A DNA stretch of 21,678 nucleotides from a virus. This document shows positions 7-9,123 of this stretch, in pieces (within the stretch, counting starts at the first letter, position 1; each line of letters begins with the position of its first letter). Under the pieces are notes generated by a model. It had not been told where the DNA came from, made no database searches, and saw only the letters and a program-made list of their open reading frames with translations. The stretch lies in the IMG/VR virus record IMGVR_UViG_3300047297_000063, positions 1 to 21,678 of that record, one strand, 5' to 3'. The position numbers were made by a program, and so were the translations under genes.

Positions 7-465
7 ATGAAGTCAAATAAGTTACCTGAGTTAAATGTTCTAGAAAAGCTATTTTCTTATGACAAAGATACAGGGATCGTCATAAGAAAGGTTTCTGTGT
101 CAAGAAACACTAAGGAAGGAGATATAGTAGGAAGTAAATCTAACGTGGGGTATTTGAAAGTTACTGTTGAGGGAAAAAGTTACCCTCTCTCACGTATTTG
201 CTACAAAATGTACACGAAGAAAGACCCATTAGGCGAAATTGATCATGTAAACCGCAATAGGATATATAACAGGGCAAATAATTTGAGGGATGTCAGTAGT
301 CAAGTGAACCAACTTAATAGACGAGCGAGGGGTTACACTGTGCTTAAGAATGGTAGGTATAGGGTCACCTTGCATAACAAAGACGTAGGCTATTTTAATT
401 GCCCGACTGCCGCCACTCTTGCCTACTTGAAAGCAAAAGGAGATTTTATTGCAAGACTTAAGTGA
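7..465 (+). CDS. HNH homing endonuclease inserted in polA
   Basis: This 152-residue protein is an HNH-family endonuclease of the kind found as free-standing homing genes in phages. The core lies at residues 78-97, with the IDHVN motif (D79, H80, N82) followed by N88, N91/N92 and LRDVSS. The His usually found in the upstream 'HR' pair is Ser62 here. Residues 112-145 (GRYRV...GYF...A) look like the C-terminal AP2-like DNA-binding segment of these enzymes, so the protein seems complete. Its last 17 bases overlap the polymerase ORF in another frame. Ten of its 13 arginines use AGA/AGG against 3 of 22 in the polymerase, which suggests separate acquisition. It probably cuts an uninterrupted polA allele to spread itself; that target is inferred from position only. 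Its own ribosome-binding site lies outside the window. Confidence 0.85.
   Translation: MKSNKLPELNVLEKLFSYDKDTGIVIRKVSVSRNTKEGDIVGSKSNVGYLKVTVEGKSYPLSRICYKMYTKKDPLGEIDHVNRNRIYNRANNLRDVSSQVNQLNRRARGYTVLKNGRYRVTLHNKDVGYFNCPTAATLAYLKAKGDFIARLK
436..451 (+). promoter_or_regulatory. Ribosome-binding site and TTG start for the polymerase fragment
   Basis: AAAGGAG at 436-442 is followed by a six-base spacer and TTG at 449-451. The site lies inside the last codons of the HNH gene. It decides the start of the downstream polymerase fragment, which would otherwise have no initiation signal. Confidence 0.65.
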
Positions 466-1870
466 AGAAGCATGGCGTCTGATTGACTACCTTACCTTCA
501 AAATGGACTGTGCAAAAGAGCAAGAGTCCCTGCGATGGAAATTAGACGTAGAAAAGACACAAGAAGCCTACGATCAGATTATGTTGCTGAAAGAGGAAAA
601 GGTAGTGCAACTGGCCGAGGCTATGCCAAAGCGTGTTCTTACTCGTGTAGCAACAAAGCCAAAGGTTATGTATAAGAAAGATGGGGAACTGTCTTCTAAT
701 GGTGAAAAGTGGGTAGAGTTGTGCAAGGAATACAAGCAACCTATTACTACCCAATCTTTTGCTATCAAGGTTGGAGAGGAACAGGGTAATCCTAACTCGT
801 CAGATCAGGTTAAGGATTGGCTATACAGTCTAGGGTGGCAACCTCGTACATTCAAGTTTGTTCGTGACAAGACTACAGGTGAAGAACGTCAGATCGAACA
901 GGTGAGAGACGATGGTGAGCTTTGTGAGAGTGTTAAAGAGTTGAACGAACTAGACCCTGCTGTAGACCTTCTGGATGGCCTTACAGTGCTTACTCACAGG
1001 GCTGGTATCCTTAAGTCTTTCCTCGACTGTGTATCACCAGATGGCTATCTAAAGGCGGAGATTGCAGGGTTTACCAACACTATGCGCTTCAAACATTCGA
1101 AGCCTTTGGTAAATCTACCCAGTGTGGACAAGCCTTATGGTGACGTTATTCGTGGTGTTCTTACCTGCCCCGATGGATATGTTCTAGCTGGTGCGGATAT
1201 GACTAGCCTAGAGGATACAACAAAACGTCACTACATGAAACCTTTAGACCCTGATTATATAGAAGAAATGTCACGAGAGGGTTTCGATCCTCACCTTGAC
1301 TTGTGCAAGTTTGCTGGTGAGATTACTCAAGATGATATTGATGCTTACAATCGGGGAGAAAAGCCAGAGCTTAAGAAGGTTCGCAAAGCGTACAAGGTTG
1401 TAAACTACAGCGCATTGTATGGCGTAGGAGCCTCTAAGCTGGCCCGTGGCACAGGTCTAAGCGTTAAGCAGGCTAAGGCACTACTAGAGGCTTTCTGGGC
1501 GCGTAACTGGGCTATTAAACAGGTCTCTGATAACGTACGTACTAGGGAACTGTTCGGGTCTATGTGGTTGTATAATCCTGTGTCACACTTCTGGTATAGC
1601 CTGCGTAGTGACAAGGATCGTTTCTCTACTCTAAACCAAGGGACGGGGGTATTCTGTTTTGACACTTGGGTTGCCCTGTGTCGTAAGAATGGTATCAAGA
1701 CTATTGGGCAGTTCCATGACGAGATTATTGCTTTGGTAGAAGATGGTAAGCAAGATGAAGTGGCTGCTATCATGCACGGGGCTGCTGCTAAACTGAACGA
1801 GAAGGTAAAGCTTAATGTCCCGCTAGGATGTGATGCACAGTTCGGCAAGACTTACGCAAGTATCCATTAA
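449..1870 (+). CDS. polA: DNA polymerase family A, polymerase domain (C-terminal part of a split gene)
   Basis: This 473-residue protein has the thumb, palm and fingers of a T7-like family A polymerase but no 3'-5' exonuclease domain. Visible motifs are motif A (GADMTSLED, Asp250), motif B (R312-x3-K316-x3-Y320-x3-Y324-G325) and motif C (QFHDE, His423-Asp424). T7 gp5 is about 700 residues, so the missing N-terminal exonuclease portion should lie left of the window, beyond the HNH gene. The start chosen is TTG at 449, because AAAAGGAG sits six bases upstream inside the HNH gene. The frame is open only back to 431, so it cannot run through the endonuclease. The next in-frame ATG (503) has no ribosome-binding site. 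The fragment is probably made as a separate subunit that associates with the exonuclease part; splicing has not been excluded. Tyr320 aligns with T7 Tyr526. Confidence 0.9.
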   Translation: MQDLSEEAWRLIDYLTFKMDCAKEQESLRWKLDVEKTQEAYDQIMLLKEEKVVQLAEAMPKRVLTRVATKPKVMYKKDGELSSNGEKWVELCKEYKQPITTQSFAIKVGEEQGNPNSSDQVKDWLYSLGWQPRTFKFVRDKTTGEERQIEQVRDDGELCESVKELNELDPAVDLLDGLTVLTHRAGILKSFLDCVSPDGYLKAEIAGFTNTMRFKHSKPLVNLPSVDKPYGDVIRGVLTCPDGYVLAGADMTSLEDTTKRHYMKPLDPDYIEEMSREGFDPHLDLCKFAGEITQDDIDAYNRGEKPELKKVRKAYKVVNYSALYGVGASKLARGTGLSVKQAKALLEAFWARNWAIKQVSDNVRTRELFGSMWLYNPVSHFWYSLRSDKDRFSTLNQGTGVFCFDTWVALCRKNGIKTIGQFHDEIIALVEDGKQDEVAAIMHGAAAKLNEKVKLNVPLGCDAQFGKTYASIH

Positions 1871-6733: not shown

Positions 6734-8428
6734 ATGTCTAAATACAAATCTAACCTAAACCCCATGTTCCGTAGCAAGTTTTCAGAGGATATTTTTAATC
6801 ATAAGTATCGGCACGAAGGTGCAGAAACGTGGGCTGCACTATCCAAGACACTTGTTGAGGATGTAATGTCTGTTGGGGGAGATGCAATTACTAAAGATGA
6901 TAAAGATACCCTAGAGAAGTATATCCGAGAACTTAAGTTCATTCCAGGTGGTCGTTATCTGTACTATGCAGGGCGTCCAAACAAGTTCTTTAACAACTGT
7001 TACTTATTGCGAGCAGAAGAAGATACTCGTCAGGATTGGGCTAACTTGTCTTGGAAATCTGAGTCTTGTCTTATGACAGGCGGTGGTATCGGTATCGACT
7101 ACTCTGTGTATCGTGCGGAAGGTACTCCAATTCAACGTACTGGTGGACAAGCTTCTGGCCCAATTCCCAAAATGAATATGATCAATGAGATTGGTCGCCG
7201 TGTTATGCAAGGTGGTTCTCGTCGGTCTGCTATCTATGCTTCTTTGAATTGGAAGCACGGGGATATTGAACAGTTCCTTAAAGCCAAGGATTGGGCAGAT
7301 ATGCCCGTTGGTAAAACAGGAAAGAGCATTTGGGACATTAAGCAAGACGATTTTAACTTCCCTGCCCCACTAGATATGACCAACATTTCTGTAAACTATG
7401 ATACCGAGTGGTTACTAAATTACTGGAAGACAGGTAAAGTTGGCAAGGTGTTTGAGCAGAATGTCCTTCAAGCTATGAAGACAGCAGAACCAGGGTTTTC
7501 ATTCAACTTCTTTGATAAAGAAAAAGAGACACTTCGTAATGCTTGTACAGAAGTTACATCAGAGGATGATAGTGATGTCTGTAACCTAGGTTCTTTGAAC
7601 TTTGGTCGTATCGAAAGTATTGATGAGCTTCGTGATGTAGTCCGTCTTGGTACTATGTTCCTAATCTGTGGTACACTCAAGGCAGAACTCCCTTATGAGC
7701 AGGTTTACCTAACTCGCGCTAAGAATCGTCGTCTAGGACTTGGATTCATGGGTGTACACGAGTGGCTCATTAAGAAAGGTTATGCTTATGAAGTAACACC
7801 TGAACTTCATCAGTGGTTGTCTGTTTATAAGGGTGTGTCTGATGAAGTAAGTAAGTCTTTTGCTGATCGACTGTCTGTCAGCCGTCCCGTAGCTAATCGT
7901 GCTATTGCACCAACAGGTTCTATTGGTATTCTTGCAGGCACTTCCACTGGCATTGAACCTATCTTTGCTGTTGCATACAAACGGCGTTATCTGAAGGGGA
8001 AGGATAAGTGGGCTTACCAGTATGTAGTTGATAGTGCTGCCCAAGAATTGATAGAGTTTTACGGGGCTGACCCAGAGAATGTAGAAAGCGCACTTGATTT
8101 GGCTGATGACTATGAACGTCGAATTAAGTTCCAAGCTGATGTTCAAGACTACGTGGACATGAGTATTAGTTCTACTATCAATTTGCCAGCTTGGGGAAGT
8201 AAGTTGAATAATGAAGATACTGTGAAAGACTTTGCTAATACTTTGGCATCGTATGCACATCGTCTTCGCGGTTTTACTTGTTACCCAGATGGTGCAAGGG
8301 GTGGACAACCTCTTACTTCTGTGCCATACTCAGAGGCGGTCGCTAAGTTAGGGGAAGAATTTTATGAACACGTTGAGACGCATGATATTTGCTCTATCTC
8401 AGGTACTGGTGGTTCCTGCGGTGTCTGA
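6734..8428 (+). CDS. nrdJ: Ribonucleotide reductase, class II (adenosylcobalamin-dependent) type
   Basis: This 564-residue reductase makes deoxyribonucleotides from ribonucleotides. Key residues are visible: NNCY (Cys89) and DVCNLGSLN (Cys283) as the redox pair, NACTE (Asn269, Cys271, Glu273) as the radical-site triad, the GGGIGIDY loop (116-123) and the PTGSIG phosphate-binding turn (393-398). The C-terminal cysteines (Cys553, Cys562) would carry electrons from a thioredoxin or glutaredoxin. I call class II because of overall likeness to marine phage NrdJ, lack of the C-terminal Tyr pair of class I, no ATP-cone, and no small-subunit gene in the window. Arginine codons are almost all CGN (1 of 30 is AGR). 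The stop overlaps the start of a GIY-YIG endonuclease gene. Confidence 0.88.
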   Translation: MSKYKSNLNPMFRSKFSEDIFNHKYRHEGAETWAALSKTLVEDVMSVGGDAITKDDKDTLEKYIRELKFIPGGRYLYYAGRPNKFFNNCYLLRAEEDTRQDWANLSWKSESCLMTGGGIGIDYSVYRAEGTPIQRTGGQASGPIPKMNMINEIGRRVMQGGSRRSAIYASLNWKHGDIEQFLKAKDWADMPVGKTGKSIWDIKQDDFNFPAPLDMTNISVNYDTEWLLNYWKTGKVGKVFEQNVLQAMKTAEPGFSFNFFDKEKETLRNACTEVTSEDDSDVCNLGSLNFGRIESIDELRDVVRLGTMFLICGTLKAELPYEQVYLTRAKNRRLGLGFMGVHEWLIKKGYAYEVTPELHQWLSVYKGVSDEVSKSFADRLSVSRPVANRAIAPTGSIGILAGTSTGIEPIFAVAYKRRYLKGKDKWAYQYVVDSAAQELIEFYGADPENVESALDLADDYERRIKFQADVQDYVDMSISSTINLPAWGSKLNNEDTVKDFANTLASYAHRLRGFTCYPDGARGGQPLTSVPYSEAVAKLGEEFYEHVETHDICSISGTGGSCGV

Positions 8429-8910
8429 TGCTGGTCTATAGGGCACACAATAAAAAGAATGGTAAGGTCTACATTGGCCTTACTACTCAGTCCCTAGAGA
8501 TCAGAAAAGCCTCGCATCTAAGGTCTGCAAAGAATGGTTCAGTTGCTCACTTTCACAAAGCAATTAGGAAACACGGGGAAGACTCTTTTGAGTGGTCTGT
8601 TGTAGATAAGGTAGAATCTTTAGAGGACTTGTACGAGCTTGAGAAGCAAACTATAAGTTCTTACAACACTTCTCAGACCTACAACATATCTTTTGGGGGA
8701 GAACACTCTGCTTATGGAATGAAACACACAGATGAAGTAAAAGTTTTGTGTGGGGAGTTTGCTAAGAGACGTTGGGATGGAAAACGTAGCGGAGATTTGT
8801 ACCCCAAAGAGGCCTTTCTGTGCAGAAGTTACAAAGAAGCAAAGTGTTTGTACGGAGTTCCCAAGACAACTTGGTACAGAAACAAAAGAAATATAGATAA
8901 TAAGGATTAG
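8428..8910 (+). CDS. GIY-YIG homing endonuclease
   Basis: This 160-residue protein is a GIY-YIG nuclease: LVYRAHNKKNGKVYIG at 2-17, catalytic Arg26 with His30 (EIRKASH), and catalytic Glu73 in YELEKQTI, then YNISFGGE (86-93). The C-terminal part (SYKEAKCLYGVPKTTWYRNKR) looks like the NUMOD/helix-turn-helix DNA-binding segment of homing enzymes. The start at ATG 8428 overlaps the reductase stop (TGATG), so its translation may depend on the reductase. Eight of ten arginines use AGA/AGG, against one of 30 in the reductase. It probably recognises the 3' end of intron-less nrd genes; that target is inferred. Confidence 0.88.
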   Translation: MLVYRAHNKKNGKVYIGLTTQSLEIRKASHLRSAKNGSVAHFHKAIRKHGEDSFEWSVVDKVESLEDLYELEKQTISSYNTSQTYNISFGGEHSAYGMKHTDEVKVLCGEFAKRRWDGKRSGDLYPKEAFLCRSYKEAKCLYGVPKTTWYRNKRNIDNKD

Positions 8911-9046: not shown

Positions 9047-9123
9047 CTACCACTAGCTCAACTGGATAGAGCAAGAGCCTTCTAAGCTCTAGGTTCCGTG
9101 TTCAACTCACGGGTGGTAGACCA
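9047..9123 (+). tRNA. tRNA-Arg (anticodon UCU)
   Basis: A full cloverleaf can be drawn. The acceptor CTACCAC (9047-9053) pairs with GTGGTAG (9113-9119). The D stem is GCTC/GAGC with GG in the loop. The anticodon stem AGAGC/GCTCT carries the loop CTTCTAA, giving anticodon TCT at 9081-9083. A five-base variable loop follows, then T stem CCGTG/CACGG with loop TTCAACT. The discriminator is A9120 and CCA is encoded at 9121-9123. It reads AGA and, by wobble, AGG, the arginine codons favoured by the two homing endonucleases here. Confidence 0.95.

Follow-up and report, generated by a model that had tools for sequence, protein, structure and literature searches.

A phage T7-type DNA polymerase probably encoded as two proteins around a free-standing HNH endonuclease gene, in a cassette-borne split

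Replicative DNA polymerases are usually viewed as single, tightly built enzymes. The locus described here raises the question of how a phage polymerase gene came to lie in two pieces with an endonuclease gene between them, and whether the pieces still make up one enzyme. The window, i.e., the whole stretch of DNA analysed, is a 21,678-base virus record from a marine-type phage; its left edge cuts through the split locus and, at a record length of only 21,678 bases, it may itself be a fragment. Our answer, which we hold with good confidence, is that a T7-type polymerase is made here as two proteins, encoded on either side of a free-standing HNH gene, without splicing and from a split that travels on a cassette.

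The window opens on the 3' end of an exonuclease gene (positions 1-10; this and all other features of the locus are on the plus strand), which can be aligned with three related contigs (L002, L082, L084) and consists of a TAC codon (2-4), a CCA codon (5-7) and a TGA stop (8-10). An earlier note on this DNA had predicted an exonuclease fragment ending near position 1. Indeed, in all three contigs a 3'-5' exonuclease ORF of about 148 amino acids lies directly upstream of the HNH gene, and it ends with KLKRLYP and a stop codon, whose TGA (window 8-10) overlaps the ATG of the HNH gene as ATGA. The HNH gene (7-465) encodes 152 amino acids. The polymerase ORF (449-1870, 473 amino acids, TTG start) begins inside it and encodes a complete family-A polymerase domain without an exonuclease, matching PF00476 (7e-18) and phrog_17 (3e-75); the exonuclease domain is absent from this ORF, since the phrog_17 match covers only profile positions 832-1232. 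The upstream ORF covers positions 669-829 of the same profile, so that the two halves tile the polymerase family almost without loss, with the exonuclease domain in a separate ORF and not in the same polypeptide as the polymerase. The family-A motifs were located by an invariant-residue comparison with intact relatives: the catalytic Asp of motif A (1196-1198; D394), motif B (RKAYKVVNYSALY, 1382-1420; R456, K460, Y464 and Y468) and the HDE of motif C (1715-1723; H567, D568 and E569). In the polymerase gene, the stretch from ~1550 to 1867 is only 67-93% identical to L002/L003, the remainder being about 93-100% identical; this divergent end is probably due to a separate recombination event.

The reading of the junction given in the earlier note also holds. 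A TGA at 428-430 sits in the polymerase frame and excludes read-through from further upstream, and a Shine-Dalgarno sequence, AAAGGAG (436-442), lies within the HNH gene six bases ahead of the TTG at 449. As the halves have their own starts and their overlapping genes are not fused in frame, they are predicted to be translated separately. The same arrangement of HNH and polymerase ORFs is found in four contigs (the window, L002, L082 and L084), and the junction recurs in six others, so an assembly or sequencing error can be rejected. The 28-kb contig L084 contains one exonuclease match and one polymerase match only. In L003 and L004, the HNH gene is absent from this site and a single fused polymerase gene is present, with the linker LYPEEKDKDRLIDYL and a polymerase 98% identical to the split form. 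No relatives were found among bacterial genome contigs.

The HNH ORF matches the HNH family phrog_99 (E 1e-32), the match to HNH_3 being below threshold. The residues of its active site (D79-H80, N92 and N101; 241-309) are invariant in nine HNH relatives, which marks the product as a putative HNH endonuclease; the genes of L002, L082 and L084 encode proteins 97% identical to the window copy. In the predicted structure (pLDDT 87.5), the C-terminal part (328-459) is tentatively an AP2-like DNA-binding domain, as Foldseek matched it to the AP2/ERF domain 1gcc with a probability of 0.97 but an E value of 0.74. The fold search as a whole returned only weak AP2 and I-PpoI matches, and a search of solved structures by sequence yielded nothing of use. 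At residue 87 (265-267), the window copy reads Ile-Tyr, compared with Met-Asp in L002, L082 and L084, within an NRNRMDNR stretch. This position is mostly Asp in the relatives, with Asn and His also occurring. The Asp87-to-Tyr change may weaken the nuclease of the window copy; we do not claim a loss of the active site, position 87 not being invariant.

The earlier note had further taken codon usage as a sign that the HNH gene arrived later than the polymerase. The counts are right and the difference is significant (10 of 13 arginines in the HNH gene vs. 3 of 22 in the polymerase are encoded by AGR codons; Fisher p = 3e-4). However, AGR codons are also frequent in further small genes of the window (5/9, 3/5, 4/7), and the contrast therefore cannot date the insertion. 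A second homing endonuclease gene, of the GIY-YIG type (8428-8910; AGR codons 8/10), begins at the stop of a class II ribonucleotide reductase gene with a TGATG overlap. It does not split the reductase, which is full length and followed by the endonuclease gene. A tRNA gene (9047-9120; Rfam RF00005, E 3e-11) is flanked by the GIY-YIG gene on one side and a glutaredoxin-like ORF on the other.

Is the HNH gene the cause of the split, as the wording of the earlier note ("polA split by an HNH endonuclease") implied? The gene does occupy the gap, but that wording credits it with too much. In ten contigs, the same split point with shared ends encloses one of three unrelated genes, encoding an HNH protein, a methyltransferase-like protein or a PAPS-reductase-like protein (the latter two names are the PHROGs annotations), and the HNH gene is thus one of several occupants of the slot, whose status as the sole cause of the split is not supported. 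In L038, the exonuclease ends with KLRRLYP-stop, the polymerase starts with MNNDLSEDAWRLIDYL, and the middle gene belongs to phrog_757 ("DNA methyltransferase"); L093 and L254 carry a diverged member of the same methyltransferase-like family in the gap. Three near-identical contigs (L178-L180) have a phrog_424 gene ("phosphoadenosine phosphosulfate reductase") there. The polymerase halves share a head that is specific to split forms (449-478 in the window, M-Q-D-L-S-E-E-A-W-R): its motif, DLSxxAWR, was found in nine viral contigs, every one of them split. In our junction table, other split forms have an ATG at the position of the window's TTG (449). The ribosome-binding site and TTG start, which the earlier note had called new, are both present; as counterparts of a start used elsewhere, they are new for this lineage only.

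Translation signals are likewise found at the other end of the slot. In the exonuclease tails of split forms, the Lys/Arg codons are rich in AGG and can double as a ribosome-binding site serving the middle gene (GAGGT, AGGAGGT); the intact L003 carries AAATCGT there. Every half has a start of its own, in most cases with a recognisable ribosome-binding site. A pattern scan for the exonuclease end pointed to five additional contigs, which were chance matches, with no polymerase in any of them. In Pseudomonas phages PA11 and TC6 and in the oyster phage T2S1, endonuclease genes stand beside polymerase genes; they follow an intact polymerase gene, and nothing is split. The polymerase half of L038 (3995-5533) has ~38 extra residues, and the intact L069 and L071 also match longer there. 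L254 (contig 3300038701_000178, 8204-11136, minus strand) has its polymerase in three pieces, in the order exonuclease, methyltransferase-like gene, N-terminal polymerase part (308 aa), endonuclease VII-like gene (PF02945) and C-terminal polymerase part (191 aa), with the second cut just ahead of motif B; its primase-helicase gene appears, by eye, to contain an intein.

How did the split move? In a tree of the polymerase body (109 distinct polymerase sequences, six of them split), split forms are scattered among intact ones, and well-supported branches force five changes of state. A single clade of split forms is rejected (AU test, p about 1e-64, or p = 0.01 when only the non-HNH forms are considered). 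As all split forms have the same junction, it is the junction that most likely moved between lineages. In the surrounding clade (L003-L009), the linker is typically intact, which suggests that the split is a newcomer there. Comparison of neighbours, L002 vs. L003 and L084 vs. L004, reveals what came along: the exonuclease gene is about 100% identical except for its last ~80 bp, where identity drops to 57-73%, and divergence 3' of the cassette is limited to about the first 30 bp. Taken together, the scattered distribution and the foreign ~80-bp tract indicate that the split is an arrival in this lineage, received as a ready-made cassette with foreign flanks.

The HNH protein may have driven this transfer. 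A foreign tract of ~80 bp just upstream of the HNH gene is what co-conversion leaves behind, and it looks like the trace of a homing event, but ordinary recombination with a split donor, without any cleavage by the HNH protein, could yield the same pattern. The HNH gene could then be a passenger, and the cassette would spread by ordinary homologous recombination through conserved stretches of the exonuclease and polymerase genes. We regard this as a serious possibility, though with the odds somewhat against it: the methyltransferase-like and PAPS-reductase-like split forms have no nuclease and yet are also scattered among intact genes, whereas two different exonuclease backgrounds (L002 and L084, with exonuclease 5' ends only 46-83% identical) carry HNH cassettes that are 100% identical, as recent homing predicts. 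In the scenario that we prefer, a pre-formed cassette consisting of an exonuclease tail, a middle gene and a polymerase head would have entered an intact gene by homing, presumably by the HNH protein, or by homologous recombination, probably bringing with it some 80 bp of flanking donor sequence. Other genes are also accepted in the slot, such as the methyltransferase-like or PAPS-reductase-like genes of related phages.

Whether the two products still form one enzyme can be approached through the position of the cut and the conservation of the halves. The earlier note had placed the break between domains, and an AlphaFold model (pLDDT 88.5) of L003, an intact relative, agrees; its top PDB matches are all T7 DNA polymerase (E 1e-28). 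The cut corresponds to Tyr146-Pro147, in a turn of three residues that joins helix 117-145 to helix 149-172 at the domain boundary. All six catalytic residues examined in the exonuclease and all nine examined in the polymerase are kept in every split form. Undivided polymerase halves keep 140-141 of the 141 positions that are invariant in 47 intact relatives (141 in the window), and the exonuclease halves keep 37-38 of 38. In most of the split-to-split comparisons that allowed an estimate, dN/dS was 0.04-0.11. L093 and L254 (0.055 for exo, 0.11 for polN) share both the split and the middle gene, so that their divergence must have accumulated while the polymerase was split. As judged from these values, both halves are under strong purifying selection.

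A two-subunit enzyme is thus plausible, its assembly being suggested by conservation and by precedent. The 3'-5' exonuclease domain would come from the upstream gene and the polymerase domain from that at 449-1870. Because the exonuclease gene overlaps the start of the HNH gene, and the HNH gene that of the polymerase gene, ribosomes finishing one could begin the next, so that translation may be coupled; the halves would then most likely pack via the normal exonuclease-polymerase interface and act as a heterodimer. It is also conceivable, if rather unlikely, that the halves stay apart, the polymerase half working without proofreading and perhaps with strand displacement, and the exonuclease serving as a separate nuclease. 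The break does leave two self-contained domains, and Kuravirus-type phages have genes annotated as "polymerase exonuclease subunit" that stand alone. However, in all split lineages seen the two genes are adjacent in one overlapping operon, and an exonuclease that keeps its active site under purifying selection fits a partner of the polymerase.

The polymerase half appears to be produced without splicing, from a start with its own ribosome-binding site inside the end of the HNH gene, as the earlier note had proposed. The locus is accordingly best described as a gene in pieces, with two halves that, to judge from their reading frames, are translated separately. HNH genes are common in polymerase introns, polymerases split by an intron are known (e.g., from the annotation of Escherichia phage 4HA13), and an intron has been suggested for phage MEP401 (PMC10580990); the HNH gene might therefore sit in a spliced intron here too. 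We consider this very improbable. At E values up to 1, Rfam detected no intron in the window, L002, L038, L176, L180, L084, L254 or L093, while the same search did detect the group I intron of the 4HA13 polymerase gene. Furthermore, the three overlapping genes comprise almost no non-coding sequence and leave almost no space for a ribozyme, the slot holds three unrelated coding sequences without a common intron core, and each half has a start of its own. A group I intron was therefore rejected. An intein or split intein was rejected as well: the exonuclease frame stops at the start of the HNH gene, the HNH and polymerase frames differ, and the exonuclease half ends, and the polymerase half begins, where the two domains normally meet, neither half carrying an additional domain. 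Least credible of all is decay, i.e., that the polymerase was destroyed by the HNH insertion and the phage relies on another one, which might be encoded beyond the contig ends, none of the contigs being complete. Against decay, dN/dS is far below 1, the catalytic residues are all intact, the split recurs in ten contigs with three types of middle gene, and there is a matching start codon with a ribosome-binding site.

The split thus seems to be a gene slot that is both stable and mobile, and not the result of damage. In a wider reading, to which we give about an even chance, the boundary between exonuclease and polymerase serves as a mobile slot for cargo: an allele that is split and equipped with translation signals spreads among intact genes, in some lineages with the help of an HNH protein, unrelated accessory genes are swapped in it, and the polymerase is assembled from two proteins, or perhaps three in one lineage. 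Natural alleles of this kind mark where a T7-type polymerase can be cut, and the cut has been tolerated long enough for divergence under selection. The cut itself most likely passes between lineages, on a cassette whose contents can be exchanged. The way in which selfish genes make two subunits out of one protein can be tested directly in this system, with the 98% identical intact alleles as controls. Separate exonuclease and polymerase proteins could also be useful tools, because proofreading can be added or omitted.

We found no published description of an exchangeable slot in a T7-type polymerase among the open-licence papers of PubMed Central, but several known systems share some of its features. 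SPO1-type and T7-like polymerase genes with HNH-carrying group I introns (e.g., that of 4HA13) have, as here, an HNH gene within a family-A polymerase gene; these introns are spliced and contain a ribozyme with an Rfam match, for which no counterpart was found at the split loci. Kuravirus-type phages (Paul, Bas92) encode a T7-type 3'-5' exonuclease as a gene of its own, which stops at almost the same point of the profile (phrog_17 668-826), but, unlike at the split loci, with no inserted gene. The gene adjoining this exonuclease in Escherichia phages Bas92 and Paul (L263/L264) gave no match to PF00476, and in Bas92 it is called a nucleotidyltransferase.

The OM43 phages MEP401 and MEP402 (Zobellviridae) are marine phages with a family-A polymerase in two ORFs and a small ORF between them, for which the authors considered an intron (PMC10580990). 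Their cut, however, is inside the polymerase domain (phrog_17 1003/1008) and not at the exonuclease boundary. In the sequence of Methylophilales phage MEP401 (L250, 6111-8221), the polymerase is interrupted by a 77-aa ORF without a family match. In phage Aeh1, nrdA is split by mobE, a free-standing HNH gene, and, according to the account in PMC2988022 (citing Friedrich 2007), the pieces remain functional. As here, an essential gene is split by a free-standing HNH gene with neither an intron nor an intein; the target enzyme is another one, and in our case the cut falls exactly at a domain boundary and persists with non-HNH genes. The precedent is gene 43 of the T4-related Aeromonas phages 25 and 44RR, which is split into 43A and 43B with a seg-type endonuclease gene or an untranslated spacer between them. 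The two products of phage 25 co-purify as an active polymerase, and the gene, as a review suggests, was perhaps already split when the endonuclease invaded it (PMC2988022). Both systems have a replicative polymerase in two parts with a homing endonuclease or another sequence in between. However, gp43 belongs to family B whereas the polymerase described here belongs to family A, its genes overlap, at least three unrelated coding genes occupy the slot, and split alleles are interspersed with intact ones among its relatives.
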